Positions 15,637 to 46,982 of a stretch of DNA of 64,000 nucleotides are shown one piece after another. The notes under the pieces are model-generated. The model was not told the DNA's origin. It was given only the letters and a program-made list of their open reading frames with translations, and did not search any database. Made by a program: the position numbers and the translations under genes. The stretch is from a virus. The first letter of the stretch is position 1, and every line of letters begins with the position of its first letter. The stretch lies in IMG/VR virus record IMGVR_UViG_3300020178_000002, positions 62,001 through 126,000 of that record; one strand, 5' to 3'.

Positions 15637-15948
15637 TTACTCCTTTAGATCTGTGTAAAACTTTAGACAGTTTCCAGACAGTCCACCTGGGAGAGTATCT
15701 CCAACTTTAACTCCTTGCCAAGGTGACATATCGTTGTTGAGGTAAATAACTTTCCACCTCGCCCGATAACCATCGCTGTTTTGTTCGTTCAAGATTTTAC
15801 CTGTGCTTTGTACATGTACGATAAGAGTTTCTCCAGAGAAACATTTCATCTCTGCTGAAGCACCATATTGTCGGTAGGAGTCAAACTCCGCATCTGTACA
15901 ACCTACACCTGCAAGTACCGCTAACCCAATAATAATTTTCTTAATCAT
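15637..15948 (-). CDS. Putative lipoprotein
   Basis: A protein of 103 residues. The N-terminus MIKKIIIGLAVLAGVGC is a lipoprotein signal with lipobox AGVGC and predicted lipidated Cys17. The mature part contains two further cysteines that could form a disulfide and a beta-rich SGETLIVHVQSTG segment. The ATG overlaps the stop of the preceding membrane protein (ATGA), so the two are coupled. Inner-membrane plus lipoprotein pairs can be spanins, but neither partner has the long coiled coil usual in that role; an envelope or exclusion function is also possible. Confidence 0.65.
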   Translation of the reverse strand: MIKKIIIGLAVLAGVGCTDAEFDSYRQYGASAEMKCFSGETLIVHVQSTGKILNEQNSDGYRARWKVIYLNNDMSPWQGVKVGDTLPGGLSGNCLKFYTDLKE

Positions 15949-16331
15949 AGTTTTAATCCTTTTTTGTTTAAATGCTCAACTCGGGTCTCACACTTACTGT
16001 TTTTTGTTTGAGTGATTAGATCTGCTTGCCCAACTGGTAGTTTGAGCCCATACTGATCTGTGTAGTAGTCAAGGTTCTTTAAGAAAACCCATCCTGTGGG
16101 GGCTTCCCATTGAACCCCATTAGCTGATACTACTATCTCTGGGTCATTCGTATATGCGTAAAACACACGATCACGCAGACCTTTGTAGCAAGAAATAGTA
16201 TGATATTGCTCAGTAGTCTTCTGAACAGTTTCTACCTGTTGTGTGCTAAAAGCAACTAAGACCAAGAGAAGTAATACAAACAGACCTTGAAATAGCTTAG
16301 ATTGTGTTATTCTTTTTAATTTTTCTAACAA
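15945..16331 (-). CDS. Membrane-anchored periplasmic protein
   Basis: A protein of 128 residues with one N-terminal membrane segment at about 14-30 (LFQGLFVLLLLVLVAFS) and a soluble, probably periplasmic C-terminal domain with two cysteines. The start is TTG at 16331, with AAAGGA seven bases upstream; no other start fits. The ribosome site is part of a perfect 12-base inverted repeat described separately, implying that translation depends on where the mRNA begins. It is coupled to the following lipoprotein gene. Function unknown. Confidence 0.65.
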   Translation of the reverse strand: MLEKLKRITQSKLFQGLFVLLLLVLVAFSTQQVETVQKTTEQYHTISCYKGLRDRVFYAYTNDPEIVVSANGVQWEAPTGWVFLKNLDYYTDQYGLKLPVGQADLITQTKNSKCETRVEHLNKKGLKL

Positions 16332-16340
16332 CTTTAATTC

Positions 16341-16381
16341 CTTTCATTCGATTTTTATATACTTATATTATCGAATGAAAG
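16341..16381 (-). promoter_or_regulatory. Hairpin hiding a ribosome site, with promoter in its loop
   Basis: Perfect 12-base arms at 16341-16352 and 16370-16381 (minus strand CTTTCATTCGAT and ATCGAATGAAAG) flank a 17-base loop containing TATAAGTATA (16367 to 16358). The downstream arm supplies part of the AAAGGA ribosome site of the TTG-started gene. RNA from upstream would fold and hide the site; RNA initiated at the loop promoter would begin at about the downstream arm and stay open. T4 genes e, soc and 49 use this layout. Structure is seen, regulation inferred. Confidence 0.65.
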
Positions 16382-16397
16382 AGGGGGGGAGTGACTT

Positions 16398-16568
16398 TTA
16401 ATAGTGACCTATAGAAAAAACAATCCAACCAAAGACAACACAAATAAAAGCTTCCTTGAACTTCTCAACTCTTTCTTCATGTGTCTCTTGCTCGAAGATT
16501 TGAGATCTTATTTTATAGGCATACAGAAAGATGCAAAAAGAAACAACATCAGCTATAAAGGTGTACAT
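16398..16568 (-). CDS. Small two-helix membrane protein
   Basis: An open frame of 56 residues, ATG at 16568 and TAA at 16398. Two hydrophobic helices (about 4-20, FIADVVSFCIFLYAY, and 41-54, FICVVFGWIVFSIG) flank a charged middle with FEQETHEERVEKFKEA. Charge and hydrophobic pattern look genuinely coding, and the frame fills what would otherwise be the largest gap in the window. The ribosome site is weak (AAAGAATGATCCT). It is read in the same direction as the downstream lipoprotein and membrane genes. A holin, antiholin or exclusion peptide is conceivable; no family is recognised. Confidence 0.55.
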   Translation of the reverse strand: MYTFIADVVSFCIFLYAYKIRSQIFEQETHEERVEKFKEAFICVVFGWIVFSIGHY

Positions 16569-16629
16569 AGGATCATTCTTTTTAATCTATTTATATGCAA
16601 TCTCTTAACAGAAGATAAGGAGAGGCTCT

Positions 16630-18114
16630 ATGGACAGCACAATAACAGATTTAGAATATGATTCAAACTTTAACTTATGGGTTGGAACAAGCCCTGTTAA
16701 AGTAGATGGTAAAGAAAACCCAATAGGGTATTGGACATTGAAGTCATGGAGAGATATGTCTCCTAAGAAAGAGATGAAGAGTAAAGAGAATGAAGTAAGA
16801 AAGCAGTTTGCAGATAAGAAGTTTTTAGAGTTTAAGAGAGCAATAGAAGCAAAAAAGAAGTCTGAATCTGGTGAGGATATCTCGGACATAGATCTTTCTG
16901 GTTTACCTGAAGATGTTCAAGTTGGAATAAAGCAAGAGATTCCCTTAGACCAAGTTAAAAAGATTACTAGGAGAAAGAACTATGGAATCCCCTCCAAGTT
17001 TTATTTCGAGAATAACCTGCATCTGTCAAAAGAAATGTCAGAGGAAGCGATAGATAAGCTTGCTGAGGAACTCAAAAAGATGATGGTGTTTCCTACAAGA
17101 CAAAGAAGCATGGTAAGAACTAAAATATTACCTTACTTAGGAACAGGTGTTCCTTCTACATATTGGAAGTTTGTGTCAAAGATTGCAGATTCTTATTTAG
17201 CTCGCACTACAGATAAGATGGATGAGCTTTTCCTTAACAAGTTTGACGAGATGGCTTTTGGCAAAACACCAGAGGAAAGACAAGAGATTAAGAAAAGAAT
17301 TGAAACTCTAAGAAAGAGCAACCCAGAGGTCATTTCTAGGAACTTTTTTACAGTAGTTCAAACTGCAATAAGTTGGATTGCCATTCCACTTGCTTTTCTT
17401 GGAACAATTAAAAAGTTCACAGGCTTAACAGGTTTCTTATTTAGAATAGCCACTAAGATGGCCCCTGTTCTTGCTTCTTCATTGAAGGGTCTAGCAGCTC
17501 TTTATGCTGGCTGTTTTCTAGGGGTTGTGGTTCTTGGTAGTACAGTCTTTAAGTTTTTCCATACCGACCATGTTGAAAATAAAAAGAAGCAACAAAGAAA
17601 AAAGAAGGACTCAGATCCTAATGAATACCTAGCCTTTGATACACTAGCTTATCAAGTATATAGTGGTGTTGTTATTCCAGAAGACATCACAGCACATTTT
17701 CAAAAAGAGCTAGACTTTATAATGTATACAGACTCTGGAACAGAGGAACAAAGAAAAAAGAGTATTCTCGACCTATGGAAAAGATTTGACTTGAATGTTC
17801 GTTCTTCTATTGAAAAGGGTATCTATCTTAGAAAAGAAGAAGAAGGCTCTGGTTTAACTATCTTTGACGACCCTGATCTTAGGTCTAATCGTAGAGCGAG
17901 TGTAAAACCAAAAGTAGACCCTTTCTTTACAAAGTTCTATATGATAGTCAAGAATATAGAAGCAGAGGAAAAAGTCGAAGAAGCTCTTGCGAGTCCTGAA
18001 TTCAAAGACATTGCAAAAGATGTTATGAAAGGCAAGGTTAAGATTCCTCCACAGTTAGCTAAAATGACAGCTAACTTGTTGGCTTTAGAAGCTAAATCTC
18101 TTACCCAAAGTTGA
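16630..18114 (+). CDS. Large membrane-associated protein of unknown function
   Basis: A protein of 494 residues, ATG preceded by AAGGAG. The N-terminal half is charged and helical. Two or three hydrophobic stretches lie in the middle (VVQTAISWIAIPLAFLG near 245-260 and ALYAGCFLGVVVLGSTVF near 295-315), followed by a very basic KKKQQRKKK patch and a charged C-terminal region. This charged, central membrane, charged plan recurs in several unrelated-looking genes here. It ends 14 bases inside the convergent lipoprotein gene. Function unknown; an ejected virion protein is one possibility (inference). Confidence 0.6.
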   Translation: MDSTITDLEYDSNFNLWVGTSPVKVDGKENPIGYWTLKSWRDMSPKKEMKSKENEVRKQFADKKFLEFKRAIEAKKKSESGEDISDIDLSGLPEDVQVGIKQEIPLDQVKKITRRKNYGIPSKFYFENNLHLSKEMSEEAIDKLAEELKKMMVFPTRQRSMVRTKILPYLGTGVPSTYWKFVSKIADSYLARTTDKMDELFLNKFDEMAFGKTPEERQEIKKRIETLRKSNPEVISRNFFTVVQTAISWIAIPLAFLGTIKKFTGLTGFLFRIATKMAPVLASSLKGLAALYAGCFLGVVVLGSTVFKFFHTDHVENKKKQQRKKKDSDPNEYLAFDTLAYQVYSGVVIPEDITAHFQKELDFIMYTDSGTEEQRKKSILDLWKRFDLNVRSSIEKGIYLRKEEEGSGLTIFDDPDLRSNRRASVKPKVDPFFTKFYMIVKNIEAEEKVEEALASPEFKDIAKDVMKGKVKIPPQLAKMTANLLALEAKSLTQS

Positions 18115-18427
18115 ATGGATTTGGACTAGGGATTTTGTAGTCTCCCATAGCACCATCTGACCCTGCTTCTGACCCAGCTTCTTCAACAGTAGAATCTGAC
18201 CCAGCTTCTTCAACAGTAGAATCTGACCCTGCTTCTTCAACAGTAGCATCTGACCCAGCTTCTTCAACAGTAGCATCTGATTCCTCTGGTTCAATTTCAG
18301 CATCTTCTTCTCTAACTTCCATATCTAAAGAGACTTCTTCAACTTCAGAATCAGTTTTCTTAATAGGTTTTGCAGATTCTTCTCCACAAGCAGTTAGAAC
18401 AAGAATAAATAGAATTAAGTATCTCAT
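18101..18427 (-). CDS. Repeat-containing lipoprotein
   Basis: A protein of 108 residues. MRYLILFILVLTAC is a lipoprotein signal with lipidated Cys14. The mature part is strongly acidic and includes four copies of a nine-residue unit SDATVEEAG, then a short Gly/Asn/Pro tail. The start at 18427 is preceded by GGAAGGAG; an upstream in-frame ATG at 18448 would place that site inside the gene. The repeats may act as a flexible surface spacer. It could be an exclusion or lysis-related lipoprotein; no domain is recognised. Confidence 0.65.
   Translation of the reverse strand: MRYLILFILVLTACGEESAKPIKKTDSEVEEVSLDMEVREEDAEIEPEESDATVEEAGSDATVEEAGSDSTVEEAGSDSTVEEAGSEAGSDGAMGDYKIPSPNPFNFG
18177..18284. 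repeat. Four 27-base tandem repeats in lipoprotein gene
   Basis: Units begin at 18177, 18204, 18231 and 18258. They differ from each other by one to four bases and encode the SDATVEEAG/SDSTVEEAG repeats in frame, so copy number can change without breaking the gene. Confidence 0.9.
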
Positions 18428-18555
18428 GGGTTGCTCCTTCCAAGGCAAAAAAATAGGTTGAGACTACAACGCTTTTTAGAGTATTTAAGACCTATGAATT
18501 TTTAGTCTCTTTATAGCCTCTTTAAAGAGAACAATTAACTTAAAAGGAAAAAGCT

Positions 18556-19041
18556 ATGAGAAGAATCACAGCATCCGAGAAAATCGCCCAGCTTGAAAAG
18601 AGAGTCGCTCAACTTGAAAAAGAAAGCTTTGACTTAAAGCAGATTCCAGATTGGCTCTTTGGAAGAGTGGATTCTAAAATGGAAGACCTTCATACACAAC
18701 TTAACTACAACTTCAAAAATCTTTTTGGAAACAAGGTTAAAATCACCTATCCTGTTAAACAACAGATCAAAAACCCTTTTAATGTTTCACAAGCTAAGTA
18801 TGTAGGTAAGCTCATTGTTGGTCGTGAACACATTAACTACACTGTTCTTGTTCTTAACAACTCTAAAATCCAACTCGAGGGACTCAACCCTTTCTCACCA
18901 GAGCAGTTCTATAAGTCTTCTAACTTTGTTTTCTACATCTCTAACAAGAAGGTTGTTTCTTCAAGAGACATTACCTCTGTTGCTTCTTTAGAAGCTATTG
19001 TAGATGCTATTGAAGCTAAGTACTCTCATATCTTAGCCTAA
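18556..19041 (+). CDS. Tagged small protein (shared N-terminal helix), copy 1
   Basis: A protein of 161 residues. Residues 1-25 read MRRITASEKIAQLEKRVAQL then EKES, an amphipathic heptad helix shared with four other proteins in this window. The rest, with beta pattern KYVGKLIVGREHINYTVLVLNN and a C-terminal helix, looks similar in layout to the 155-residue product at 46461-46928 but unlike the membrane paralogs carrying the same tag. AAAAGGA precedes the ATG. Its stop overlaps that of the convergent ParB-like gene by four bases. The tag may be a targeting peptide (inference). Confidence 0.65.
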   Translation: MRRITASEKIAQLEKRVAQLEKESFDLKQIPDWLFGRVDSKMEDLHTQLNYNFKNLFGNKVKITYPVKQQIKNPFNVSQAKYVGKLIVGREHINYTVLVLNNSKIQLEGLNPFSPEQFYKSSNFVFYISNKKVVSSRDITSVASLEAIVDAIEAKYSHILA

Positions 19042-19487
19042 ACCCCATCTAAAGGGTGTCTTAAAGAATGATGTGAAGGCTTACTTGATTTGAAGTAGGC
19101 TTCCATTATTCTTACTAGGTCAGAATTTGTCCATGCAATACCATCATTAGATTCTTCTGGTTTTGGTTCTACTACTTCAGGCTCAAAAGGCATTTCTGAA
19201 AGAACTATTGCATGGACATTCTTCCTACCTTGTGCAATAGCTTTTATAGCTCTATGGCAACCATCTATAATATTTCCATTGTGTACTAAGATAGGGAATG
19301 AGAGATCAGCTTCCAATACTCTTCCTATATGATCACACAGGTGTGTCTGACCCCAGAACCATTTTTGTAAAAAAGAGTCTGGTATAGACCATTCAACGAA
19401 TGTTTGGTCTTTCGTCATCTCCCAAAGTTTTTTTACTTCCCATTGGTAAGTCACACCATTTTCAGTGTGGGAATAAGTATGTCCCAT
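19038..19487 (-). CDS. ParB/sulfiredoxin-like domain protein
   Basis: A protein of 149 residues. The central block FPILVHNGNIIDGCHRAIKA followed by GRKNVHAIVL carries the IDGxHR signature of the ParB/Srx fold, in which the Arg region binds a phosphate or nucleotide; Cys and His sit next to it here. The family includes DNA-binding, nuclease and CTPase members, and phage versions are mostly uncharacterised. The C-terminal tail is acidic, then His/Ser rich. GGAG upstream overlaps the end of the preceding 592-residue gene. The fold is a fair call, the activity unknown. Confidence 0.6.
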   Translation of the reverse strand: MGHTYSHTENGVTYQWEVKKLWEMTKDQTFVEWSIPDSFLQKWFWGQTHLCDHIGRVLEADLSFPILVHNGNIIDGCHRAIKAIAQGRKNVHAIVLSEMPFEPEVVEPKPEESNDGIAWTNSDLVRIMEAYFKSSKPSHHSLRHPLDGV

Positions 19488-19491
19488 GTGT

Positions 19492-21270
19492 TTACTCCAT
19501 GCTAGAGAGCATCTCTAAGTTTGCTTTTAATCTTCTTCTGTAACTAGGGTCTCTTTTAACCCTACTAGCAATTCTTTGCAGAGCTGCTTTTTTGTTTCCT
19601 TTGAACTTCTTTTTAATAAAGTCAGCAACGATACCAACAGTCTTAATGCCTTGACTAAAGAGGTATTTAACTAGCCAACCTAGTAGTATAAAAGGTTCTG
19701 ATGCGATTGCAAAGAGAATACCTACCAAAGCAGTAATAAAAGAAGCAGAGCTTAAAAGGATAGATAAAGTAGTAGATCCTAATACAACACCCATTTTTCT
19801 TAGGTGTGAAGCTGTAAACTTAGCATTTGTTAGCAATGCAAAGATGGCTACAAAAACAATGAACCCACCAGCAGAAGTTGCAGCACCCATTAGCACTGTT
19901 TTTGCAGAAAGAGCTTTACCTGTAAAGAGGAAACTCTTAAGGTAAGGCCAGATAAGCTTAAAAGCAGCTATTTTCAGCCCAACAAAAATTGATTTAACTG
20001 CTAATATCTTAGTGTCTGGCAACAAAGATAGATACTTCATTATCTCAGAATACTTGCGAATAGAGTACATCAAAACAATTTGTGCTTTAGAAGAAGGCTC
20101 TTTGAAGTTTGGTATTTCGTGTAGGCTAAATTTACCTTTTTGTACAGACTTGTACTCATCATACTTTCTTCTAAGCTCAAACAACTCTCCTTTTAGCAAA
20201 GCCTCATCTGCTCTATTGTCAGCCAGCTCAATCTTCTCTTCTAGTTCTCTAATTTGCATAGCTACAGATTCAAACTTTGAATTATTCTCAGCTACAACTT
20301 CTCTGTACTTTTGAGAAATTGTACTTTTAATGTCTTTCATATCTTCAAAGCTAGTAGTAAGAAACCATCCTTCTTTTAGATTTATATACTCATCTAACAA
20401 AGAAAGGTACTCTTTGTAGTTTGGATCAAAGCCAAAAAATTTCTCTAGACGTTCAAATGGTATATTTGCAGCCATAGCTACTTCGCCTAGAGTTTTTGCT
20501 TTAACTAAAGTAACGACATTATCCGCCCAGATTGCAGGATTCCTTTGAGGGTCAAATTCATCTAAAACCATCTGTGCGAAAGGGTTGTGCTCTGCCATTT
20601 TCTTTACTGTCTTTGGAGTATACTCAACAAACATAGGCCAAAGAGAGCCTAAGTGTATTTTTTTATTCAAGACAGCTCCAATCAAGTACTTAACCTTAGC
20701 AACCATTCCCTTATCTATCTTCTTGCTTGCTTTTTCAGAGATGTCATTAATGACAGTAGCAGTAGCATCTAAAACTACTTTCTCTTTATCAGAAGCAAGT
20801 CTTCTATTGTCAGACATAAGGTGTGCAAGAATTAAGTTATTCATACTAGCTTTTTTACTGTGTTTCATTTTCCAAGACTTCCATTTGCTATGTGCAGGAC
20901 TAGATTTGAGTGAGGGGTCATGCCCCCAATTTCTGAGACTGATTTCCCATTTGGACATTCCAGAGCCCTTAATAGGTTGTCCTGGTTTGCCACCTAACAT
21001 ACGAGAGTTAAAACCATTCTCCTGAGCAGCATTATCAAAGTCTTGAGCTGTCCATTTGTCGAATGGCTTCGACTTTCTTCTCTTTATTCTGTGAAAAGAG
21101 TCATAGCCAGATTGTATATCACCAGCTTCTTCTGCTTCTTCTCTATTAATTGAAGCAAGAAGCCTATCATCATTCTTTGCCCATGAGTCTAAAGACTTCT
21201 GACTCATGTTTATAAGTGACTTCCACTTATTGTAGATTTCTTTTTTTTCTTCTGGTGATCTTTTGGCCAT
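19492..21270 (-). CDS. Large multi-span membrane protein
   Basis: A protein of 592 residues. Residues 1-135 are soluble and basic, with the block NGFNSRMLGG and SGMSKWEISLRNWGHDP, which looks like a conserved short domain. A long charged coiled coil follows, then three to five hydrophobic spans at about 405-540 (for example GGFIVFVAIFALL and LVGILFAIASEPFILLGWLV). The C-terminus is highly basic, with AALQRIASRVKRDP. AAGGAGG precedes the ATG, downstream of a late-promoter-like palindrome. It shares the charged/membrane/charged design of other genes here and may be a virion protein inserted into the host membrane (inference). Confidence 0.6.
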   Translation of the reverse strand: MAKRSPEEKKEIYNKWKSLINMSQKSLDSWAKNDDRLLASINREEAEEAGDIQSGYDSFHRIKRRKSKPFDKWTAQDFDNAAQENGFNSRMLGGKPGQPIKGSGMSKWEISLRNWGHDPSLKSSPAHSKWKSWKMKHSKKASMNNLILAHLMSDNRRLASDKEKVVLDATATVINDISEKASKKIDKGMVAKVKYLIGAVLNKKIHLGSLWPMFVEYTPKTVKKMAEHNPFAQMVLDEFDPQRNPAIWADNVVTLVKAKTLGEVAMAANIPFERLEKFFGFDPNYKEYLSLLDEYINLKEGWFLTTSFEDMKDIKSTISQKYREVVAENNSKFESVAMQIRELEEKIELADNRADEALLKGELFELRRKYDEYKSVQKGKFSLHEIPNFKEPSSKAQIVLMYSIRKYSEIMKYLSLLPDTKILAVKSIFVGLKIAAFKLIWPYLKSFLFTGKALSAKTVLMGAATSAGGFIVFVAIFALLTNAKFTASHLRKMGVVLGSTTLSILLSSASFITALVGILFAIASEPFILLGWLVKYLFSQGIKTVGIVADFIKKKFKGNKKAALQRIASRVKRDPSYRRRLKANLEMLSSME

Positions 21271-22504: not shown

Positions 22505-22513
22505 GTGTTGAAG

Positions 22514-23851
22514 ATGACTACTAAGAAGAAAAAGATTAAAGAAAAGAAACAGCTTGCCTTTCAAAAAAAGTCAGCAGCCGCTTTTAGAGCTTTAGGGAGA
22601 GCTGTTTATAGACATAGGCACAAAGCTAGGAAAAAGTACCCTAGCAGGTCAAATGAGTCGTTTAAGAAAAGAGGTAGATGGCTTATCCGCTTTCTGGATA
22701 AAGAACCTAAGACCATAGAATTTCTTGATACCTTTATTGGAACAGAAGATATGAATCCTCGAACAAAAGGTTGGAGAAGAAAAGTCTTAGAGCTTCTCTC
22801 TCTTTACCTTTTAAACAAGATCACATTGAGAGAAGCCTCTAAACTATTTGTGCCTATAGCTGCTAAGTCTTATGAAGTTGTTGCTTTAAACAAACAGCAA
22901 AATAAGATTCAAAAAACATTGCCACCAGAGATCATGGCCTTTTTGCCTAGCTCTATTGTTGTAGAAGTAGACAAAAACAACAACATCAAGGGCATCAATG
23001 ATATGTTTGTAAATGATACATATACATTGAAGGAAAAAATAAAGACCCAGAAGAAGCTAGTTTACCGATACAACACTATTGTTAAGCAAGTAAAGAAAGA
23101 TATGAAATCCAGAGATGAGATTACTAAGCTCTGTGCTTTAGTTACTTCCATCATAATGGAAACAGGCATTAGACCTGGAAAGATTGGTAATAGTGCTGTC
23201 AAGATTATAGAAGACAAGAAGATAGAAGTAGAGACTTTTGGAGCTGTTTCTCTCAATGCAGACCATGTGTCTTTTGTTAAAGACAACTTTGCAGAATTAA
23301 AGTTTGTAGGTAAGAAGGGTGGCTTGAACACAGCATCTCTCAAAGACTCAGATGTGATCAAAGTTTTAAAAGACTATGTAGATAACTCATTGAAGTCTGG
23401 TTCTAAGTACATATTTACAACTAGAGATGGTGAACAGTTTGATTACAAAGACCTTTCAAGCTACTTTAGGAAGAACTTTAAGGGCTTTAAAATCACAGAC
23501 TTTAGAAAGCTAAGAGCTACTAGAACTGTTTTTGAGGTTCTTAAAGATGAAAGAAGAAATATGCTAGGCAGGATCAAAGAGATTGCGTCTGGTGAGGTTG
23601 AGTCTATCAAAGCTAAAGCTACCGAAGAGATTGTTAAAACAATAGAATTGGCTCACCAGCAGGCACAGGCTGCCTTGAGTCACATGGATTCAAGCACAAC
23701 TCAAGATGCTTATATTAACCCTCAGGTTCTCTTACGCTTCTTAAGCACTGCAAAGATAGAGTCTTCTTTTAGAGACTATATCATGCAAGGCAAAACAAAG
23801 TTCAGATTTGATCCTATGATGTTTGTTAAAGAAGCTGAGAAGCTGGCATAA
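22514..23851 (+). CDS. DNA topoisomerase IB-like protein
   Basis: A protein of 445 residues. After a basic N-terminus and helical region come the motifs of the TopIB/tyrosine recombinase fold. IMETGIRPGKIG supplies Arg near 220, FVGKKGG the active Lys near 267, TDFRKLRAT the second Arg near 331-334, LSHMDSS a His near 390, and DAYINP the candidate nucleophile Tyr near 400. Spacing His to Tyr (10) and the YINP ending match TopIB (SYIHP) better than integrases. Such enzymes relax supercoils through a 3'-phosphotyrosine. ATG at 22514 has AAAGG eight bases upstream. The 3' end overlaps a convergent gene by 26 bases. Confidence 0.78.
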   Translation: MTTKKKKIKEKKQLAFQKKSAAAFRALGRAVYRHRHKARKKYPSRSNESFKKRGRWLIRFLDKEPKTIEFLDTFIGTEDMNPRTKGWRRKVLELLSLYLLNKITLREASKLFVPIAAKSYEVVALNKQQNKIQKTLPPEIMAFLPSSIVVEVDKNNNIKGINDMFVNDTYTLKEKIKTQKKLVYRYNTIVKQVKKDMKSRDEITKLCALVTSIIMETGIRPGKIGNSAVKIIEDKKIEVETFGAVSLNADHVSFVKDNFAELKFVGKKGGLNTASLKDSDVIKVLKDYVDNSLKSGSKYIFTTRDGEQFDYKDLSSYFRKNFKGFKITDFRKLRATRTVFEVLKDERRNMLGRIKEIASGEVESIKAKATEEIVKTIELAHQQAQAALSHMDSSTTQDAYINPQVLLRFLSTAKIESSFRDYIMQGKTKFRFDPMMFVKEAEKLA

Positions 23852-24332
23852 GCTTTATAGGTTCTACATCAGAAGCCCAATGGTTTCTAATTGAGTTAAT
23901 GATATAGTGACCATGCTCTACTTTATTGACCTTAATATCTCCATGAGTTGAATTGGTATAGATCATATACCTTGCTCTGGGTACGTCATCAAATAGGATG
24001 TCTGTTAAAACTGTGTCAACTTCAAGACTATCTATAAAAAAAGAAAAGTATGTTGTGATCTCAGCTTTAGGTAAAGAAGGATGGCTCATAACCACAGAGT
24101 GATACCTATATTCTTTGTTAGCAGAAATATCTTTTTGATCCTCTGTTGTCTTGACAAATTCGTAACCCATTTCAAGCATTAGACTTTGATAAAAACTCGT
24201 TGTGTTTGCTAAAAACAAGTACATCTGAACTTCATAATCATCACCAACAGCATTTGAGAAGCTAATAATAGGGTCTGGGATATTTATGTTCATAATCCTT
24301 TGACCATTTGAAACTTGTGTATAATTATCCAT
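23826..24332 (-). CDS. Unknown protein
   Basis: A protein of 168 residues, ATG preceded by GAGGT. It overlaps the upstream 202-residue gene by eight bases, so the pair is coupled. Mixed alpha/beta sequence with DDYEVQMYLFLAN and EHGHYIINSIRNHW; no membrane span or catalytic motif found. The end is embedded in the topoisomerase gene on the other strand. Function unknown. Confidence 0.55.
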   Translation of the reverse strand: MDNYTQVSNGQRIMNINIPDPIISFSNAVGDDYEVQMYLFLANTTSFYQSLMLEMGYEFVKTTEDQKDISANKEYRYHSVVMSHPSLPKAEITTYFSFFIDSLEVDTVLTDILFDDVPRARYMIYTNSTHGDIKVNKVEHGHYIINSIRNHWASDVEPIKLMPASQLL

Positions 24333-24933
24333 TTGTTAACCTCACAAAAGCTCTAGGAATCCAATATGATTCAGACTGTCTGAGCATAGTCTGAAAATCT
24401 TCTTCGGACATGTCTGTAGGAGTTCCACCATCCCAGCCATAATAGTTGGCTTTCAAAGCATAGGGTGTAATAGGTGGCATAGATTCATCATTGTCTGGAT
24501 ATGCATTTATGCTTATTAGTTCCCAATTATCTGCACGAGGCTCTAGCTCATTGTCACCTGTTATAGAAAGGGCTAATGAGTTGTAGAAAATCAACCCTAC
24601 TTTTTGAGCTTGGGGTTTCTGACTACGAAGAACTTCCCTGTAAGGTCTCGGTTCTTCACCTTCTACTCTAGACCTAATTCCCTCAAAGACTTCTTCATCT
24701 TCTTGTATTAAACAAACTGCTGAATAAAAGTGTTGGCTTAGGTTTTCTGGGAGAGTAGCAACGAGGACTCTACCACCTTCATTGTGGTTTAATGGTAGAT
24801 ATCCTTCTCTTGTTTCAGCAACTAGTAAGAGATTAGCCACTTCCTCTAAGGGGAGTGTAGAGTGAGATAGGGGTGCTTCTGCGGTGTGTCTTTTAGCAAA
24901 GCTATTTACAGCAATCTTGTTTATAGTAGTCAA
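24325..24933 (-). CDS. DUF3228-like protein
   Basis: A protein of 202 residues starting with TTG, preceded by AAAGGA at good spacing. The segments LISINAYPDNDESMPPIT, the following aromatic helix, then GGTPTDMSEEDFQ and ESYW recall the conserved end of DUF3228 proteins (MPPxTxxRN, GGTxxxYSxEExxxxxxxW). No activity is known for that family. A TATAAGTATA palindrome lies about 65 bases upstream. Confidence 0.5.
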   Translation of the reverse strand: MTTINKIAVNSFAKRHTAEAPLSHSTLPLEEVANLLLVAETREGYLPLNHNEGGRVLVATLPENLSQHFYSAVCLIQEDEEVFEGIRSRVEGEEPRPYREVLRSQKPQAQKVGLIFYNSLALSITGDNELEPRADNWELISINAYPDNDESMPPITPYALKANYYGWDGGTPTDMSEEDFQTMLRQSESYWIPRAFVRLTNG

Positions 24934-25008: not shown

Positions 25009-26430
25009 TTACTCTAAAGAAGTTCCTTTAATTTCTTTAATCTTATCAGAGATTTTTTTGAGGTACTTATCCGTAGTAGCCTCTATGCTTTTTAGTTCTA
25101 TACCTGTAAACTCAAAATACTGCATAGCTTCTTCATTATCTAATAGCTGTTTAGCTACCTCTGATGTACTGATTTCACCTTGGTAATTCTCACCTTCTTC
25201 ATTGGTTATATAGCACAAACAAAGCTCTCCTTGAGGGTTTTCCTTTGTGAAAACATAACATTTATCTCTGATATAGGTTGAGGAGCTAGGGTCTGATGGT
25301 TTGTAGCCCTCTCTCTTATCAATTTCCTCTAAGACTTTTTGAGCATGTTCAATAGGGTACTCTAAAAGCATACCTTCCATATACCCATATGGCTTAGTTC
25401 CAAGTACAAGATGTTTTCTTCCTGTGCTATATATGTTGAAAGACCTTGATAGGTTATTAACATGGCCTCTTCTCTTTTTTGTGATTAGCTCTGGAAAGAT
25501 AGGTTCATACATAAGAGAGCCATAGACGAAAACCTTTAGAGTGTTTTCATGTGGGGCCATTAGAGGAATGTCTAACTTATTTTTTTCTAGGTTTGACAGA
25601 GTGACTTCACCCTCATCATTTAGATAAATACGCTTAACACAAAACTTACATTTCTCTTTGCCCTTGAAGTGTTTCTCATAGCCCTCATAAATACTATCTT
25701 CATCTATTAGGATTACAGTCATTCTTTTATACACAGGGTCTAATATGATCTGATTAGAAGTGAACATATTGTCTGTCTTTCTAACCACATTAAAAGGATT
25801 ATGTATGTCCTTTATTCTTTGAGTATAAAGCTTTTTGACTAGATCCATTGGAGATCTTTTGTAGGATTGCATTGCTTTCAATGCAGTATTGTATCTCGTT
25901 TCAGAAGATTCCCTATCTTCACCCTCAAGGTAGCCTGCGTCTGGGTGTCTAATACCGTGATTAGTTCTAACAAAGTGTTTATCTGTAATCTCCTCAACCT
26001 TTGGAGAATGCAAGCTTGTTTGTTCTACAATAAAAGTGTTCTTACCATCCGTGATAATATTATGACCTCTAACACCATTCCTATGGTGTGTCATTACATG
26101 AAGTGCTTCTAAAAGAGAATTACACTCTAAAGCCTTTAGAAACCTCCAAGCATCTCCTGAGAATCTGTTTCTATCTCCAGGTCTTTTTTTCTTACCCTCT
26201 TTTTCATCAGAGATTACAGCAAGAGCAGCATTTGTTATTGCAATACCATGCTCATTAATGCCCTCTACCCAGCCCGATATAGTATCTTGGAAATAAAGTA
26301 TTTCAGTGCCATTTTCAGCCCTTACATGGTATATCTTAAAAGTAGGGACATAGTTCCTATCTCTATTTTTGAACACTATCTTTCTATTTCCTACTTCAGT
26401 GAGTGCAATCACACAAGCGTTTTTATCCAT
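25009..26430 (-). CDS. Ntn-hydrolase / gamma-glutamylcyclotransferase fusion
   Basis: A protein of 473 residues. Residues 1-245 resemble C45/NRDE-type Ntn hydrolases: Cys6 as candidate nucleophile, KNRDRNY at 21-27, GINEHGIAITNAAL at 58-70, GHNIITDG, and VRTNHG near 154-159. Residues 298-440 resemble GGCT/AIG2-like enzymes: VFVYGSL at 300-306, YGYMEGMLLEYP, and the acidic catalytic signature DKREGY with Glu374. A CKFC pair lies in the linker. The first family cleaves amide bonds, the second forms 5-oxoproline from gamma-glutamyl amines, so both may act on one conjugate. Five residues before Cys6 would need removal for a true N-terminal nucleophile. AAAGGA precedes the ATG. Confidence 0.75.
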   Translation of the reverse strand: MDKNACVIALTEVGNRKIVFKNRDRNYVPTFKIYHVRAENGTEILYFQDTISGWVEGINEHGIAITNAALAVISDEKEGKKKRPGDRNRFSGDAWRFLKALECNSLLEALHVMTHHRNGVRGHNIITDGKNTFIVEQTSLHSPKVEEITDKHFVRTNHGIRHPDAGYLEGEDRESSETRYNTALKAMQSYKRSPMDLVKKLYTQRIKDIHNPFNVVRKTDNMFTSNQIILDPVYKRMTVILIDEDSIYEGYEKHFKGKEKCKFCVKRIYLNDEGEVTLSNLEKNKLDIPLMAPHENTLKVFVYGSLMYEPIFPELITKKRRGHVNNLSRSFNIYSTGRKHLVLGTKPYGYMEGMLLEYPIEHAQKVLEEIDKREGYKPSDPSSSTYIRDKCYVFTKENPQGELCLCYITNEEGENYQGEISTSEVAKQLLDNEEAMQYFEFTGIELKSIEATTDKYLKKISDKIKEIKGTSLE

Positions 26431-26532
26431 AGTGGGAATCCTTTGTTTTTATATCTCTATAGGATAAAGGTATATAACAATTACAATACGAGGCGAGAAA
26501 TGAGACACTCAAACCAAAGACAGGAGCATGAT

Positions 26533-26910
26533 ATGGGTGCTGGTATTATGCTTACTTGCAAGAAAAAAGTTTTAATACTCAAAAGGGCTAACTACAAGAA
26601 AGATCCTTTTGCAGGATATTGGAACTTTCCAGGTGGTAAAACAGATAACACTGAATCTGCATATGAAACAGCCCTTCGAGAAACCTTTGAAGAAACAGGC
26701 TTTGAAGAAAGAGACATTAAGATCTATAAACATGTAGAAAGCAGAGGCTACACAATGTTTATAGGTGTTCTTGATGAAGAGTATATGCCTGTTCTTGATG
26801 AAGAACACACAGACTACAAATGGGTAGATATTGAAGAAGTAAGAAACTATATCTTACACCCAAAAGATGAAAGGTGCTTCAAGAAGTATCTTGCTAGCAA
26901 GAAGAAATAA
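26533..26910 (+). CDS. Nudix hydrolase
   Basis: A protein of 125 residues. A complete Nudix box runs from Gly35 to Phe57: G-x5-E41-x7-R49-E50-T-F-E53-E54-T-G56-F57. PFAGYWNFPGG upstream of it is typical of MutT-like members. These enzymes hydrolyse nucleoside diphosphates linked to another group (oxidised dNTPs, caps, NAD-type molecules); the substrate cannot be read here. The start at 26533 has AGGAG six bases upstream; ATG 26500 is possible. A longer frame running left is antisense to the Ntn-hydrolase gene. Its stop abuts the convergent gene with no spacer. Confidence 0.88.
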   Translation: MGAGIMLTCKKKVLILKRANYKKDPFAGYWNFPGGKTDNTESAYETALRETFEETGFEERDIKIYKHVESRGYTMFIGVLDEEYMPVLDEEHTDYKWVDIEEVRNYILHPKDERCFKKYLASKKK

Positions 26911-28019: not shown

Positions 28020-28868
28020 ATGAATAAAATATCAACACAAGAAATTAGAAAGCTTGAAATTAGGATAGCAAGGTTAGAGAAGGAGTCCAAGATTCTTGAT
28101 TGGTTGAAGTCTATCCCTATAAACCTACTCTCTAAGATTCAAGACTCCTTTGGAGAAATTTCTTCTCTTTTAAAGCTTACCTTAAAAAAGAATAAGGAAA
28201 GTATCTTAGAGGGCTTAGTTAAGTTCTTAGAAGTTAGAGTCAGCAGTGCATTAGATAAATCTCTTATGTCTGGATACCCTATTAGGTTTTATATCACTAA
28301 TTTTGACCCAAACAATCCTATGAACTCTGAAGCCCAGCTTATGGTTAAAGAAGTAGGTGGTGAGTTAAAATCTTATGAAGCTACTATCCGAGATATGCCA
28401 TCAATGCTTAAAGATGTTGAGGGTCTACCCCCTAGCATAGATAAAGATATTAAAGGTGCATATATTTCATGGTGGAAAGACTTTGAAGAAGAACTAAAAA
28501 TGCTTCGTGAAGGAAGGATGAGTAGGTCTACGGATTTGAAATCTTTCTGGAACAGAATCAAAGGTGCAAGTAAGTTTCTTTACAGGTTCTTGAGAGTTGT
28601 CTACAGCTTTAAATGGGCTTATGAAGTGTTCTCTTTAGTTGTGATGTTTACAACCCTAATGCCTTTGGCAGAAGTTGCACCAGAAAGAGGGAAGACCCTC
28701 ACTTATCTAGGTGTTGGTAAGATGATCTTAAACATATTTGAAAAGGTTCTTCGCAGAAGAAAAGTAAATATGGATCTCTTTGATGAGCTTGCAGCTAAAA
28801 AAGCATCTTCTCACCCTTACCCATATTGTAATAGCTTAGTCTCTCATTACGAAAGGGTTTGCAAGTGA
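28020..28868 (+). CDS. Tagged membrane protein, paralog 1
   Basis: A protein of 282 residues. Residues 3-23, ending RKLEIRIARLEKES, are a divergent version of the shared N-terminal helix. It is paralogous to the 292-residue protein at 29547-30425: common landmarks are DIKGAYISWWKD near 143-154, a membrane segment near 200-218 and RRRKVNMDLFDEL near 250-262. GAGG precedes the ATG. The stop overlaps the GTG of the next tagged gene (GTGA). Function unknown; joint presence of a tag and a membrane segment suggests delivery into or through a membrane. Confidence 0.65.
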   Translation: MNKISTQEIRKLEIRIARLEKESKILDWLKSIPINLLSKIQDSFGEISSLLKLTLKKNKESILEGLVKFLEVRVSSALDKSLMSGYPIRFYITNFDPNNPMNSEAQLMVKEVGGELKSYEATIRDMPSMLKDVEGLPPSIDKDIKGAYISWWKDFEEELKMLREGRMSRSTDLKSFWNRIKGASKFLYRFLRVVYSFKWAYEVFSLVVMFTTLMPLAEVAPERGKTLTYLGVGKMILNIFEKVLRRRKVNMDLFDELAAKKASSHPYPYCNSLVSHYERVCK

Positions 28869-28936
28869 GGCAACTAACAGCATCACAGAAAATCGCTATC
28901 CTTGAGAACAGAGTAGCTCAACTTGAAAAACAAGCA
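28865..28936 (+). repeat. Tag module DNA, copy A
   Basis: 72 bases encoding the N-terminal tag; six differences from 29547-29618, all silent except the GTG/ATG start. Similarity stops abruptly just downstream. Confidence 0.85.
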
Positions 28937-29494
28937 ATGCTTGAAAGCATCTTAGCTAAGATAAAAAGCAAGTTGTCCCGATTCAAGCCCCTTAAGGTAG
29001 CTCAACATGTGGCCAAAGACTCTAAAATGACAGTGGGGAAGTTTGAAGCCTTAGCAAAAGCGAATCCAAAGGAACTTAAAGAGTTAAAGAAAGCTGTGAG
29101 GTCTTCTAATCCTCAAACCTCTATTTTAAAGCTATTAGACATTTACAATAATAAAGAAAATGCAATCTATTTGAAAAGTGTATATGGGATAGATCTTGAG
29201 TCTCAAGAAAGAACAAAGAATGCAAGGAAGCTAGTTCAGCTCAACAGTCTGCCTGACTTTGCTCTCTATTTTGGTAGTATCATAGCCTTTTTTATTTGTG
29301 ATTTCGTTGTTGAGCTTTTATTTGACTATCTCCTTGAACTGATAGCTGAAGATCTCGAGAAATCAGACAATGTATTCAGGAAACTTAAACGTGCTTGCCT
29401 CTACTTGATCTTAGCACCTACTATGGGATTACACATACTACTTTCTGGGATCAAAGAAGGGCTGAAAGCAATGAACCCTTTTGCGTTTTTTTAA
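28865..29494 (+). CDS. Tagged membrane protein, copy with near-identical tag
   Basis: A protein of 209 residues, GTG start at 28865 overlapping the previous stop by four bases and preceded by AAAGGG. Its first 24 residues are identical to those of the gene at 29547-30425, at about 92% DNA identity, but the remainder is unrelated to it: a basic helical region, then hydrophobic helices near 138-160 (FALYFGSIIAFFICDFVVELL) and 178-195 (LYLILAPTMGLHILL). The abrupt loss of similarity after the tag implies module shuffling. Function unknown. Confidence 0.65.
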   Translation: MRQLTASQKIAILENRVAQLEKQAMLESILAKIKSKLSRFKPLKVAQHVAKDSKMTVGKFEALAKANPKELKELKKAVRSSNPQTSILKLLDIYNNKENAIYLKSVYGIDLESQERTKNARKLVQLNSLPDFALYFGSIIAFFICDFVVELLFDYLLELIAEDLEKSDNVFRKLKRACLYLILAPTMGLHILLSGIKEGLKAMNPFAFF

Positions 29495-29546: not shown

Positions 29547-29618
29547 ATGAGACAACTAACAGCATCACAAAAAATCGCTATTCTTGAGAACAGAGTGGCT
29601 CAACTTGAAAAGCAAGCA
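29547..29618 (+). repeat. Tag module DNA, copy B
   Basis: Second copy of the 72-base tag module, about 92% identical to 28865-28936. Confidence 0.85.
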
Positions 29619-30425
29619 ATCATTCAAATGATTAAGAATCTGGGAATGAACTGGTTTAAACCTCTAATTGCAGCAGCTCAAGACCTTGTGTCCACTTTCA
29701 AGGGGTCAATTATAAGTAATAGAGATACTTTTGCTTCTGCTGCTGAAATGAACTTACAGGCGAGACTGACCGAAGCTCTCCAAAGAAATATGTTTTTTGG
29801 GAAAACCACATCAATAAGTGTTGAAAAATTTGATGCTAAAAACCCAGTAAACTCTGTTTTGAAAGTCTCCTATTCTGTAAATGGAGAACCCAGGTTTCTT
29901 GATTTCACTCTGAGTTCTGTACAGAAAATTAGAGAGATTGACAGTAAAACCCAAAAAGACATTATGGGAGCATATGTTTCATGGTGGAAAGATTGGGGTG
30001 ATTCTCTGGATATTGTAATCAATGGCAAATCTCCATCAAAAAGTATGGTTCAGAGCGTAATTGATTTTTTCTCTAGGAAGTTTAAGTTCCTTGGGAGATT
30101 GCTTTCTGCACTAGTTAAATTTGGAACAAAAATAAGAACCCTAACCCTGATCCCTACTTTAGTAGCATCTTTAATAGTTTGCCTTTGTGGACCTCTCGGC
30201 CTAGTTGTTGGTAGTACTGTAGCTATGAACCAAATTGGGTTAATGACACTACCAAAAGTTGTAGACATGATTCTTAAGATGATTGAGGGTGCTTTCAGAA
30301 GAAGAAAAGTAAACATTGATAAGTTCAATGAAATAATTGGCAAACAAGCATCTGTGAATAAGTATGCAAGTAAATACCCACACACATATTCTATGTTATT
30401 AAGACTTGAGGGTGCTGGAGTCTAA
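29547..30425 (+). CDS. Tagged membrane protein, paralog 2
   Basis: A protein of 292 residues. The N-terminal tag (TASQKIAILENRVAQLEKQA) is identical to that of the preceding gene, whereas the body is paralogous to 28020-28868: MGAYVSWWKDWGD, a hydrophobic hairpin at about 207-235 (LIPTLVASLIVCLCGPLGLVVG) and FRRRKVNIDKFNEI. The C-terminal region has KQASVNKYASKYP. So tag and body have separate histories. The ribosome site is weak (GAAAGAA). Confidence 0.65.
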   Translation: MRQLTASQKIAILENRVAQLEKQAIIQMIKNLGMNWFKPLIAAAQDLVSTFKGSIISNRDTFASAAEMNLQARLTEALQRNMFFGKTTSISVEKFDAKNPVNSVLKVSYSVNGEPRFLDFTLSSVQKIREIDSKTQKDIMGAYVSWWKDWGDSLDIVINGKSPSKSMVQSVIDFFSRKFKFLGRLLSALVKFGTKIRTLTLIPTLVASLIVCLCGPLGLVVGSTVAMNQIGLMTLPKVVDMILKMIEGAFRRRKVNIDKFNEIIGKQASVNKYASKYPHTYSMLLRLEGAGV

Positions 30426-31118: not shown

Positions 31119-33719
31119 ATGTTTAATGATATGCTTGCAGAGCTACTCAGACCTACAATCAACCCAAAAGGTTGGATGAAGGACTGTGAGCTACTACTAG
31201 GAACTGAAAGTAATCTTGAAGAATGTATTCAAGAATGTATGAATGCACCTGATGGTGTGTATGGCTTAGACCTTGAAACAACAGGGTTAGACAATCGTGT
31301 ATTTAATGGTGTCACCAGAGACAAGATTGTGGGTGTCTGTCTTGCCCCTCATAAAGATAAAGGCTACTACTTCCCTCTTGCCCATGCGGAGGGGTCAAAA
31401 CACAATATCTCATGGAGAGTTATGGGGGATGCCCTCAAGCGTTTGTTTGATCTTGAAGTAAAGTCAGACCCTGTGTTCCATAATGCTTCTTTTGACCAAG
31501 AGTTTCTTGAGTTCAATGGGTATGTAGACAGGCTAGGCAAAGAGAGATGGGACAATCAAAAGAGGTGGCATGATACGCTTATTATCAAGTATCTTCTCAA
31601 CCCAAGAGAAAAGGGTGGTCGTGGTTTAAAGCATCTTTCTAAAGTATTGCTTGAAAGAGAGATGATTGAGCTTGAAGACCTAATGCCAGATGCTGTGGAT
31701 AAAAACTATTCTACTTTAGACCCTAGCTGGGATCCCTGTGTTTTATATGCATCAGCAGATGCCATGAACACAGTTGGAATCTTCAACATTCTGAACAAAG
31801 AGTATGAAGAAGATACAGCTCACACTAAGTTCATCTACAACCTTGAGAAGAAAACTTTGTTATGTACTCGTTGGATGATGAGGAATAGGGTTCATGTAGA
31901 CAGGAAAACAGCACTCAAGTTTTGTCAAGAGGGTCAAGAGCTTTGGTTCAATGCATTGCTTGAAGTATATGAGGGTGCTAAAGACATACTTGGTCGAGAC
32001 ATTACTCCAAACTATGTTCGTATCTTAAAAGGTGACATTAAAGGTCTGAATCTTTTCAACCACATGGAAGTAGAGGGTGCAAGCTATAAGACTCGAGTGG
32101 ATGAAGCTCGTAAGGAAGCAAACAGACTACACCCAGACACAAAAGAAACTATCACTAAGCCTGTTAAGAGGTTAAGTAGCGATAAGTTTAAAAAGGCAGA
32201 AGGCTTTGAAGATGTAGACTTCCCTTTAACCTATGATATTCTTTCACCTCAACAGTTAGGTCTGTTGTTTAGAGAGTTAGATGTTCCAGGTCTGATGGTC
32301 ACGGAGAAGTCTGGTCAAGTAGCGACAGGGAAAGATGCTATTGATTCTGTGATTGAGGAAGCCTCTGAGGGATTCCCATTCATGGCAAAGATTAAAACCT
32401 TCCGAGAGCTTGGTAAAGCATTGGGTCAGTACCTTATTCCATTCGTAGAAGATGTAGGTCCAGATGGCACACTCAAACCTAAGTTTGATCAGTTTTCTGC
32501 TGACACAGGTCGCTTTTCTTGCAAGACAAACAGTAGACCTTGGAAAGTCAAAGATGGTGGTTGTCGTGTACCATTTCAAGGTATTCCAGCCACCTATGAC
32601 AAGAACAAGCCTAAATGCATATCTAAAATGAGACAGTGTATCTCTGTAAGGGATGACAACTATTGGTTAGCGGCCATTGACTATGCAGGTGTGGAATTAA
32701 GGTTGGTGACTAACCTATCTAAAGAGCCTAAGTGGATTGATGCTTTCTTCTCTTGTTCTGAATGTGGAAAGAAATATCAGCAAGAGCTTGGTGACGATGG
32801 CTTTGTTATTGCACCACCAAGTCTTTGTTCATGTGGTTCAGATAAGATTGGTGATCTTCACACAGGTACTGCTGTTGCTTTCTATGGAGAGGGTTCAAAG
32901 AAGCAAGACAATTGGAAAGTCCTTCGTGGTAATGGTAAGGCTTGTAATTTTGCCCTTTGTTATGGTGGTACAGGCAAGGCTGTTCAAAGGTCTATTGGCT
33001 GTGACGCTAAAGAGGGTGATGAAAAGTACAGAGTCTTTACCAAGACTTACTCTGGACTTACAGGTTGGTGGTCTCAACAACATAAGTTTGCTCGAAAGGC
33101 AGGTTATGTGAAAACTGCTATGGGCAGAGTACAGCCTTTACCAGACATCAACTCTGATCAGTTTAGGTTTAAGAGTAAAGATGAACGAAAGGCATTGAAC
33201 GGACCGATTCAAGGAACAAGTGCAGATGTTACCAAGTTAGCTATGGCTCTCATTTATGAGAATGTCCAAAAGCGAGGTTGGGAAGATAAGCTGTTAATGG
33301 TTTTAACAGTCCATGACGAAATTGTATTTGAGATCCACAAAGACATTCTTAAAGAGGCTATTGAAATGATTTCAGACCTTATGACTAAGAACAATGTGGT
33401 TCAAAAAATGAATTGGCCTATTCCATTACTTGTAGACGTTGAGTTAGGTAAGGATTGGACTGTTCCTTATGACTTGAAGGACATTATGCAAGCAGATGGA
33501 GACCCAGAGCTTGTTAAAATATTTGAGGGAGAGAAGCCTGAAGAGGTTGTCGAGACAGTAGAAGCTGTGGAAGTACCTACTATTTTAACATTTGAGGTAT
33601 TGAGCCTTGATGAAGAAACAGCAGATAAAATTGCTGAGTGGATTAAAGAAAGAAAACTACTCAATGATGAGTGGGATGTGTCCTACGAGGGCAGATCAGT
33701 AAAAGTATTATTTGAATAA
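31119..33719 (+). CDS. Family A DNA polymerase with 3'-5' exonuclease
   Basis: A protein of 866 residues. Exonuclease motifs: DLETTG (51-56), HNASFD (121-126) and YASAD (210-214). Polymerase motifs: A with DYAGVELR (Asp521), B with R603-x3-K607-x7-Y615-G616, C with VHDE (731-734). Phe611 occupies the position that in E. coli Pol I (Phe762) disfavours ddNTPs. Between motif A and the conserved HTGTA helix is a four-cysteine insertion (CSEC at 546-549, CSC at 570-572), probably a zinc ribbon, not part of the classic fold. No 5' nuclease domain. About 75 acidic extra residues follow the fold. Likely the replicative polymerase; AAGGAG precedes the ATG. Confidence 0.95.
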   Translation: MFNDMLAELLRPTINPKGWMKDCELLLGTESNLEECIQECMNAPDGVYGLDLETTGLDNRVFNGVTRDKIVGVCLAPHKDKGYYFPLAHAEGSKHNISWRVMGDALKRLFDLEVKSDPVFHNASFDQEFLEFNGYVDRLGKERWDNQKRWHDTLIIKYLLNPREKGGRGLKHLSKVLLEREMIELEDLMPDAVDKNYSTLDPSWDPCVLYASADAMNTVGIFNILNKEYEEDTAHTKFIYNLEKKTLLCTRWMMRNRVHVDRKTALKFCQEGQELWFNALLEVYEGAKDILGRDITPNYVRILKGDIKGLNLFNHMEVEGASYKTRVDEARKEANRLHPDTKETITKPVKRLSSDKFKKAEGFEDVDFPLTYDILSPQQLGLLFRELDVPGLMVTEKSGQVATGKDAIDSVIEEASEGFPFMAKIKTFRELGKALGQYLIPFVEDVGPDGTLKPKFDQFSADTGRFSCKTNSRPWKVKDGGCRVPFQGIPATYDKNKPKCISKMRQCISVRDDNYWLAAIDYAGVELRLVTNLSKEPKWIDAFFSCSECGKKYQQELGDDGFVIAPPSLCSCGSDKIGDLHTGTAVAFYGEGSKKQDNWKVLRGNGKACNFALCYGGTGKAVQRSIGCDAKEGDEKYRVFTKTYSGLTGWWSQQHKFARKAGYVKTAMGRVQPLPDINSDQFRFKSKDERKALNGPIQGTSADVTKLAMALIYENVQKRGWEDKLLMVLTVHDEIVFEIHKDILKEAIEMISDLMTKNNVVQKMNWPIPLLVDVELGKDWTVPYDLKDIMQADGDPELVKIFEGEKPEEVVETVEAVEVPTILTFEVLSLDEETADKIAEWIKERKLLNDEWDVSYEGRSVKVLFE

Positions 33720-46464: not shown

Positions 46465-46928
46465 TACTGATATAAAGCCATGATCTTTTGACGCTGGCGA
46501 GGTGTTCTAACGCTATTTTTGACGATAGTTTTAATGTTCTGGATGATGAATTTAGGGTTTTCAGAAGAGAAGTTAGGCACTACCACTAAATTAAATTGTT
46601 CTCTGGTGTATATACTTGTTAAGTAAACCCTTAGTAGGTCTTGCTCCTTATCAAGCTCTACATTAATAAACATAAGTTGTTGTCTATCATTTTTGATATG
46701 ACCTCGTGCCTCTAATTGGTATATTTTATTGGGCTTTTTGATGTAGCCATCATCACCTTTGGTGTTTGCAAGACCATAGTCTACCAGAGCATCTCCTGTT
46801 CCGTTAGCTATTGCCTTAAGGGTTTCTTTAATTTTATCTCCAAAAATGTCAAATAGTCCAGCTTCTTTTTCAAGCCTGGCGATTCTCATTTCAAGAGATC
46901 TGATTTGTTGTGCTGCTGTTCTTCTCAT
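46461..46928 (-). CDS. Tagged small protein, copy 5
   Basis: A protein of 155 residues from ATG 46928, with AGGAAAA upstream; an in-frame ATG ten codons earlier is less likely. Residues 1-25 read MRRTAAQQIRSLEMRIARLE then KEAG, the shared tag. The remainder has beta pattern QQLMFINVELDKEQDLLRVYLTS and a C-terminal helix with IIQNIKTIVKNSV, like the body of the 18556-19041 product. This minus-strand copy is 17 kb from the plus-strand cluster, so the tag is dispersed. Confidence 0.65.
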   Translation of the reverse strand: MRRTAAQQIRSLEMRIARLEKEAGLFDIFGDKIKETLKAIANGTGDALVDYGLANTKGDDGYIKKPNKIYQLEARGHIKNDRQQLMFINVELDKEQDLLRVYLTSIYTREQFNLVVVPNFSSENPKFIIQNIKTIVKNSVRTPRQRQKIMALYQY

Positions 46929-46982
46929 TTTACGTTTTCCTATCTGATAAAGATTCATTCCTTGTGGGACATAAAAGACATA

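Follow-up and report, generated by a model that had tools for sequence, protein, structure and literature searches.

A single open reading frame of a huge phage joins an Ntn amidohydrolase domain of the AAT/C45 type to a ChaC/GGACT-like gamma-glutamyl cyclotransferase (GGCT) domain. Both folds carry conserved catalytic-type residues, and the fusion is kept in related viruses. We propose, with a probability of about one half, that the product is a bifunctional small-molecule amidase, which would use two active sites on one chain to break down a gamma-glutamyl-type metabolite stepwise. The Ntn half is part of a phage enzyme family that is large and apparently undescribed, and many members of this family are not fused. 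This phage family and its leader signature draw as much interest as the fusion itself.

The fusion gene

The gene was found in a stretch of 64,000 nucleotides (the window), which corresponds to positions 62001-126000 of a 312,136-base virus record (G000), a phage, where it is single-copy. It is a single intact reading frame of 473 amino acids at 25009-26430 on the minus strand, with an ATG start at 26430-26428 and a stop codon at 25011-25009. The hexamer AAAGGA, eight bases 5' of the ATG and within CAAAGGA at 26439-26445, looks like a good ribosome-binding site. All features of the gene given below are on the minus strand. A five-residue leader, M-D-K-N-A (26416-26430), precedes the Ntn domain, which covers residues 6 to about 285 (25576-26415); the GGCT domain covers residues about 297-470 (25021-25542).

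The initial annotation, made from the sequence alone, had described one polypeptide with an Ntn fold and a GGCT-like domain. This description was borne out by the Pfam profiles, the structural models, and the retention of the fusion. The motif positions it had listed (Cys6, NRDR 22-25, TNHG 156-159, YGSL 303-306, and Glu374) were all confirmed. The domain search it had recommended for the same fusion found seven distinct sequences that hold both halves in one frame. Independent contigs carry this fusion too, which excludes two genes joined by a sequencing error as well as a frameshift artefact.

Ntn hydrolase domain

The Pfam AAT profile (acyl-CoA:6-aminopenicillanic acid acyltransferase, PF03417) matched residues 14-218 with an E-value of 4e-8 (33.7 bits against a curated cut-off of 23.2), and it was also matched by 18 of 25 relatives at E<=0.01. 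The NCBIfam C45 model gave an E-value of 7e-13 and a score of 48.6, below its own curated cut-off of 85; the membership is thus in the broad AAT group and not in that curated subfamily. The choloylglycine hydrolase family (PF02275) was also considered, but at E<=0.001 nothing in the 312-kb record matched it.

A sequence search against solved structures gave chance matches only. An AlphaFold model of the window protein was built from 24 homologues (mean pLDDT 77). The Ntn half of this model matched isopenicillin-N acyltransferase (IAT, 2x1c) first in the PDB, with E 1.8e-8, followed by CV2077, choloylglycine hydrolases, and penicillin V acylases (PVA). When a non-fused relative was modelled (pLDDT 90), IAT was again the best match (2.9e-10, TM-score 0.64 of the query), and NAAA, PVA, and acid ceramidase were among the further matches. 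In both models the first strand comes directly after the invariant Cys, beginning at residue 7 in the window protein, as in Ntn hydrolases.

Ten residues are invariant in 25 relatives, at identities down to 27%: Cys6, R23, D24, R25, N59, N157, H158, R179, N214, and R217. The codon of Cys6, the putative N-terminal nucleophile, is at 26413-26415; the N22-R23-D24-R25 motif is encoded at 26356-26367, and the T156-N157-H158-G159 motif at 25954-25965. Judged from the alignment, the invariant Cys is accompanied by the likely supporting Asp, Asn, and Arg of the AAT/C45 Ntn hydrolases. The divergent fusion lineage (L230-L233) and some non-fused relatives start with Met-Cys, which is consistent with a leader removal that frees the amino group of the Cys. 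The Met-Cys start of the L230 lineage gives independent support for Cys6 as the N-terminal nucleophile.

Cyclotransferase domain

Pfam ChaC (PF04752) matched residues 300-433 with E 1.1e-8 (35.7 against a cut-off of 21). GGACT (PF06094) matched the same residues with E 5.7e-5 (24.1 against a cut-off of 22.8), and reached 1.5e-8 in the best member. The GGCT half of the model, part of which was modelled with low confidence, matched ChaC2 (6ky1, Foldseek 5e-7), yeast Gcg1, and human GGCT. Structure prediction, which had been suggested as a check, gave IAT as the best match of one half and ChaC2 as that of the other.

These matches raise the leading alternative to the gamma-glutamyl-conjugate reading, in which the substrates are glutathione-like thiols. 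The GGCT half would degrade glutathione or another gamma-glutamyl thiol, the Ntn half would act on a conjugate related to it or on a substrate of its own, and the host redox state would be altered or Cys and Gly recycled. ChaC is the top Pfam match of the C-terminal half, which among solved structures matches ChaC2 and yeast Gcg1 best. However, GGACT also exceeds its cut-off, so glutathione specificity does not follow, and one fusion member (L023) has lost Glu374. Such thiol depletion is possible but doubtful.

The window protein has both the YG[S/T]L loop, as YGSL 303-306 (25513-25524; the motif of the gamma-glutamyl binding loop in GGCT folds), and a catalytic-type Glu, Glu374 (25309-25311), the putative catalytic acid/base. 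Residues Y303, G304, R329, D371, and R373 are invariant across the seven fusions. The YG[S/T] loop is found in seven of seven, and Glu374 in six of seven; L023 has Arg at this position and keeps the whole GGCT domain. Conservation of the catalytic residues, another recommended check, thus held throughout for the Ntn half in 25 relatives, and for the GGCT half in 7/7 except at Glu374 (6/7).

The GGCT half might now be mainly a binding or structural appendage, with the Ntn half as the sole enzyme. The loss of the catalytic Glu in L023, the absence of the domain from most Ntn relatives, and the exchange of C-termini in L028, L094, and L098 would fit such a role. On the other hand, Glu374 is kept in the most divergent fusion, L230. 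For the close pair L025/L027, the dN/dS was about 0.07 for the Ntn half and 0.10 for the GGCT half (Nei-Gojobori count). Purifying selection thus acts on both halves, and the low value in the GGCT half also argues against an appendage, which we regard as unlikely.

Relatives and distribution

In L019-L027, from IMG/VR contigs of up to 375,691 bases, the fusion is kept with 48-60% identity along the full chain, and the divergent lineage L230-L233 shares 36% identity with the window protein. The Ntn half is found without GGCT in many viral contigs; one scan gave 203 relatives, of which the best 80 were retained, and further ones came from a second scan. In L028, L083, L094, and L098 the Ntn domain has different, unassigned partner domains on its C- or N-terminal side. 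The partner in L028 is a 245-residue C-terminal part without a Pfam match, and in L083 it is a long basic N-terminal part.

In a phylogenetic tree of the Ntn half, both fusion lineages share a well-supported group with L028 and L098, neither of which has GGCT. L028 and L098 are nested among the fusion lineages and carry other C-termini. On this tree the fusion label needs two changes, which could mean a single gain followed by replacements or a gain on two occasions. L230 is on a long branch, and its exact placement is unsure.

GGACT is confined to the fusion in all three large fusion phages examined. It had no match in 12 phage records that have the Ntn half without the fusion, so the Ntn reaction needs no GGCT partner.

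The whole protein was searched by tblastn against the annotated phages, and matches were found in the Chryseobacterium phages MA9V-1 and MA9V-2, in the Ntn half only. The GGCT half alone had no match in any annotated phage even at E<=1, and no plasmid matched the fusion protein. Among 395 Bacteroidota and 296 Actinomycetota genomes sampled, no fusion and no new member were found; two already known contigs matched, in the Ntn half only. A scan of bacterial genomes with a single protein gave nothing, and an alignment-based scan gave L098 and L099 alone, which may be contigs of phages or prophages. The initial annotation had known of no such fusion in phages, which agrees with its absence from the annotated phages, the plasmids, and the 691 bacterial genomes sampled. 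The fusion appears to be unreported within the collections searched. The two-enzyme protein is an addition found in no annotated phage, and it opens an unannotated phage amidase family that is widespread in metagenomic virus contigs and has two cultured members, in MA9V-1 and MA9V-2.

Leader and activation of the Ntn family

Outside the fusion clade, 53 distinct proteins were compared. A Glu stands directly before the catalytic Cys in 47 of them, and five start with Met-Cys. Leu or Ile occupies the third position before the Cys in 45 of the 48 leader-bearing proteins of this set. After clustering at 70% identity, (L/I)-x-E|C was found in 20 of 24 leader-bearing lineages; the positions farther upstream and the leader lengths vary. 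The T4 protease gp21 has been reported to cleave after L/I-X-E, and the internal proteins of T4 carry short N-terminal capsid-targeting leaders that are removed by gp21 (PMC9026906). Of 22 records that contain non-fused members, many being fragments, 16 encode a gp21-type protease (PF03420). The Chryseobacterium phages have FLNE|C (MA9V-1) and FINE|C (MA9V-2) before the Cys; a prohead core serine protease is annotated in MA9V-1, and PF03420 finds a match in MA9V-2. For virion proteins, the published description of MA9V-1 offers SDS-PAGE only, and a text search of that of MA9V-2 turned up no mass spectrometry.

These patterns, although indirect, speak well for the non-fused Ntn members being packaged zymogens that capsid maturation activates. 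The Ntn half would then represent a phage-specific zymogen family. In gp21-bearing phages the prohead protease would cut (L/I)-x-E|Cys in the maturing capsid, which would make the catalytic N-terminal Cys, and the active amidase would be injected with the DNA. The fusion phages would have a variant of this family, in which the leader differs and a cyclotransferase has been added. Reading this from sequence patterns, we consider it about as probable as its opposite. If it is true, virion maturation makes the catalytic residue of the enzyme, and its action is placed at the first moments of infection. The main alternative is that the leader of the non-fused proteins is removed by autoproteolysis with a preference for Glu; this leaves unexplained why the third residue before the Cys is constrained and the second is freer.

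The zymogen reading was compared with the wider leader repertoire of three phages. In G005, a gp21-bearing phage of 254 kb, [LI][LI]xE occurs 44 times against 11 expected (p 8e-14) when the first 25 residues are taken across all ORFs, and no over-representation is seen for control motifs with D, Q, or K at the end. A second gp21-bearing phage, G006, has a weak excess (21 against 10), and [LI][LI]xD is raised there too. The window phage has no excess (13 against 9.6). Dozens of ORFs in G005 (the record of L057, loci L191-L203) and G006 (L204-L218) have leaders like MKIIITENQFKRLINE or MKNLIRKILKE, ending in (L/I)xE. These ORFs may represent a large set of packaged, injected proteins.

The window protein and its close fusion clade lack the (L/I)-x-E motif; their leader reads M-x-K-x-[A/S]-C. 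The gp21-type protease PF03420 was not detected in the three large fusion phages, G000 and two others. Self-cleavage before Cys6 had been proposed as a point to check. The N-terminal exposure of Cys6 is expected, given its invariance and the Met-Cys start of the divergent fusion; the window clade would have to shed its five-residue leader for this.

A different N-terminal tag, approximately M-R-R-S-A-S-E-V-I-R-N-L-E-M-R-I-A-R-L-E-R/K-Q-A, recurs in 23 ORFs of G000 and 24 ORFs of the 376-kb relative G002, on proteins that otherwise differ. Tagged ORFs in the window are at 18556-19041, 28020-28868, 28859-29494, 29547-30425, and 46461-46958. Ten tagged proteins were searched against Pfam, with no match above the cut-off. 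The tag looks like a targeting leader, perhaps for packaging, in phages without a detectable gp21-type protease.

Genomic context

The fusion gene is surrounded by genes for proteins of no assigned function, a divergent NUDIX hydrolase (26500-26910, plus strand), and a type IB topoisomerase; the topoisomerase IB-like protein is at 22505-23851 (PF01028, 4e-15). The next gene downstream (24325-24933, minus strand) encodes 202 amino acids without a Pfam match, and is shared with G002, where it is not adjacent. Both this gene and the NUDIX gene are regarded here simply as neighbours of the fusion gene. Homologues of the window ORFs at 19038-19487 and 19492-21270 lie on either side of the fusion in G002. 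G000 and G002 have 185 ORFs in common, which places them in one group of huge phages. A few of their genes, at 15920-18670, 180564-181442, and other places of G000, are 92-99% identical, and the other shared proteins are mostly 30-70% identical. The highly identical genes suggest recent exchange or extreme constraint. The window also encodes a family A DNA polymerase (31119-33719). In the annotated collection it matches best, at 44% identity, the 485-kb record of an uncultured phage (LR745208.1); there the match falls into three pieces spread across 4.9 kb, which looks like an interrupted gene.

No common operon was found for the Ntn family, and its context varies by phage group. The counter-defence role raised in the initial annotation gained no support, since no defence or anti-defence match was given by PADLOC.

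The genes scanned near the fusion included no other gene of a gamma-glutamyl pathway, and Amidoligase_2 (PF12224) and RimK-type ATP-grasp (PF08443) are absent from the 312-kb record. These results bear on two other explanations. By the logic of butirosin biosynthesis (BtrH/BtrG), the Ntn half would transfer an acyl group that carries gamma-glutamyl to an amine, and the protecting gamma-glutamyl would be taken off by the GGCT half, so that a modified metabolite is made and none is destroyed. Enzymes of the AAT type act as acyltransferases and hydrolases alike, and the pairing of an acyltransferase with a cyclotransferase has a known functional precedent. However, neither a carrier protein nor a gamma-glutamyl ligase is among the nearby genes scanned, and the lack of RimK and Amidoligase_2 also makes such biosynthesis improbable. 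The fusion could also be a one-chain form of the peptidoglycan-modification cassette of RIO-1, phiEco32, and LUZ24-like phages, in which a glutamine amidotransferase accompanies GGCT. The profile matched by the Ntn half is AAT, not that of class II glutamine amidotransferases, and the missing amidoligase and RimK-type ATP-grasp largely refute this very improbable explanation.

Proposed function

For the stepwise breakdown of a gamma-glutamyl-type metabolite, which we take as the likeliest use of the protein, the following mechanism is proposed. Removal of the five-residue leader would expose Cys6, which would attack the amide of a small acyl conjugate. If active as predicted, the Ntn half would take off one amide-linked group, such as an N-acyl cap. 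The ChaC-like half would then cyclise the freed glutamate, and the gamma-glutamyl group would be released as 5-oxoproline via Glu374. The setting would be the metabolites of the infected cell, from which the phage might draw a benefit. IAT cuts the delta-(alpha-aminoadipyl) side chain off isopenicillin N, which is a close analogue of a gamma-glutamyl amide. The two folds could therefore plausibly meet on one substrate class, and a common substrate for both halves is presumed here.

The initial annotation had proposed consecutive steps on a gamma-glutamyl conjugate. This proposal fits the anatomy of the protein and is plausible; the lack of synthesis genes among the nearby genes scanned and the Arg of L023 at position 374 do not favour it. 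A strict two-step pathway, with its presumed order of steps, is also opposed by an Ntn family that thrives without GGCT and by the lack of a substrate clue in the genes scanned.

Comparison with known systems

The closest known systems share single features with the fusion. IAT (AAT PF03417, peptidase family C45; wider relatives PVA, choloylglycine hydrolase, NAAA, and acid ceramidase) has a like fold, with the AAT profile above its cut-off, and an N-terminal Cys nucleophile after a removable leader, the removal being predicted in the fusion. However, the identity to IAT in the structural alignments is only 14-19%, and the fusion has a phage-specific NRDR/RTNHG signature and an attached cyclotransferase and scores below the NCBIfam C45 cut-off. 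The ChaC/GGACT cyclotransferases (ChaC2 6ky1, yeast Gcg1, and human GGCT) have the YGSL loop, the REG motif with Glu374, the profiles, and the fold in common with the GGCT half; in contrast, the window GGCT is joined to an Ntn hydrolase, and one fusion member lacks the Glu.

In butirosin biosynthesis, the acyltransferase BtrH acts with the gamma-glutamyl cyclotransferase BtrG, as in the pairing of the fusion. BtrH has been described as papain-like and not Ntn (PMC2922099), and the BtrH/BtrG system is biosynthetic, unfused, and not from a phage. The peptidoglycan-modification cassette of RIO-1, phiEco32, and LUZ24-like phages comprises GGCT, class-II glutamine amidotransferase, amidoligases, and ATP-grasp (PMC5498523, PMC11945000). 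It also places GGCT beside an amide-handling enzyme in a phage, but as separate genes and with another partner family, and its amidoligase and RimK are not found in the 312-kb record. The leader end (L/I)-x-E of the T4 gp21 (S77) head substrates is lacking in the window fusion, whereas most non-fused relatives have it. The unannotated proteins MA9V1_182 and MA9V2_239 of the Chryseobacterium phages belong to the same Ntn family, with 33% identity over 239 residues; they differ from the fusion in having no GGCT domain and a leader that ends in (L/I)NE before the Cys.
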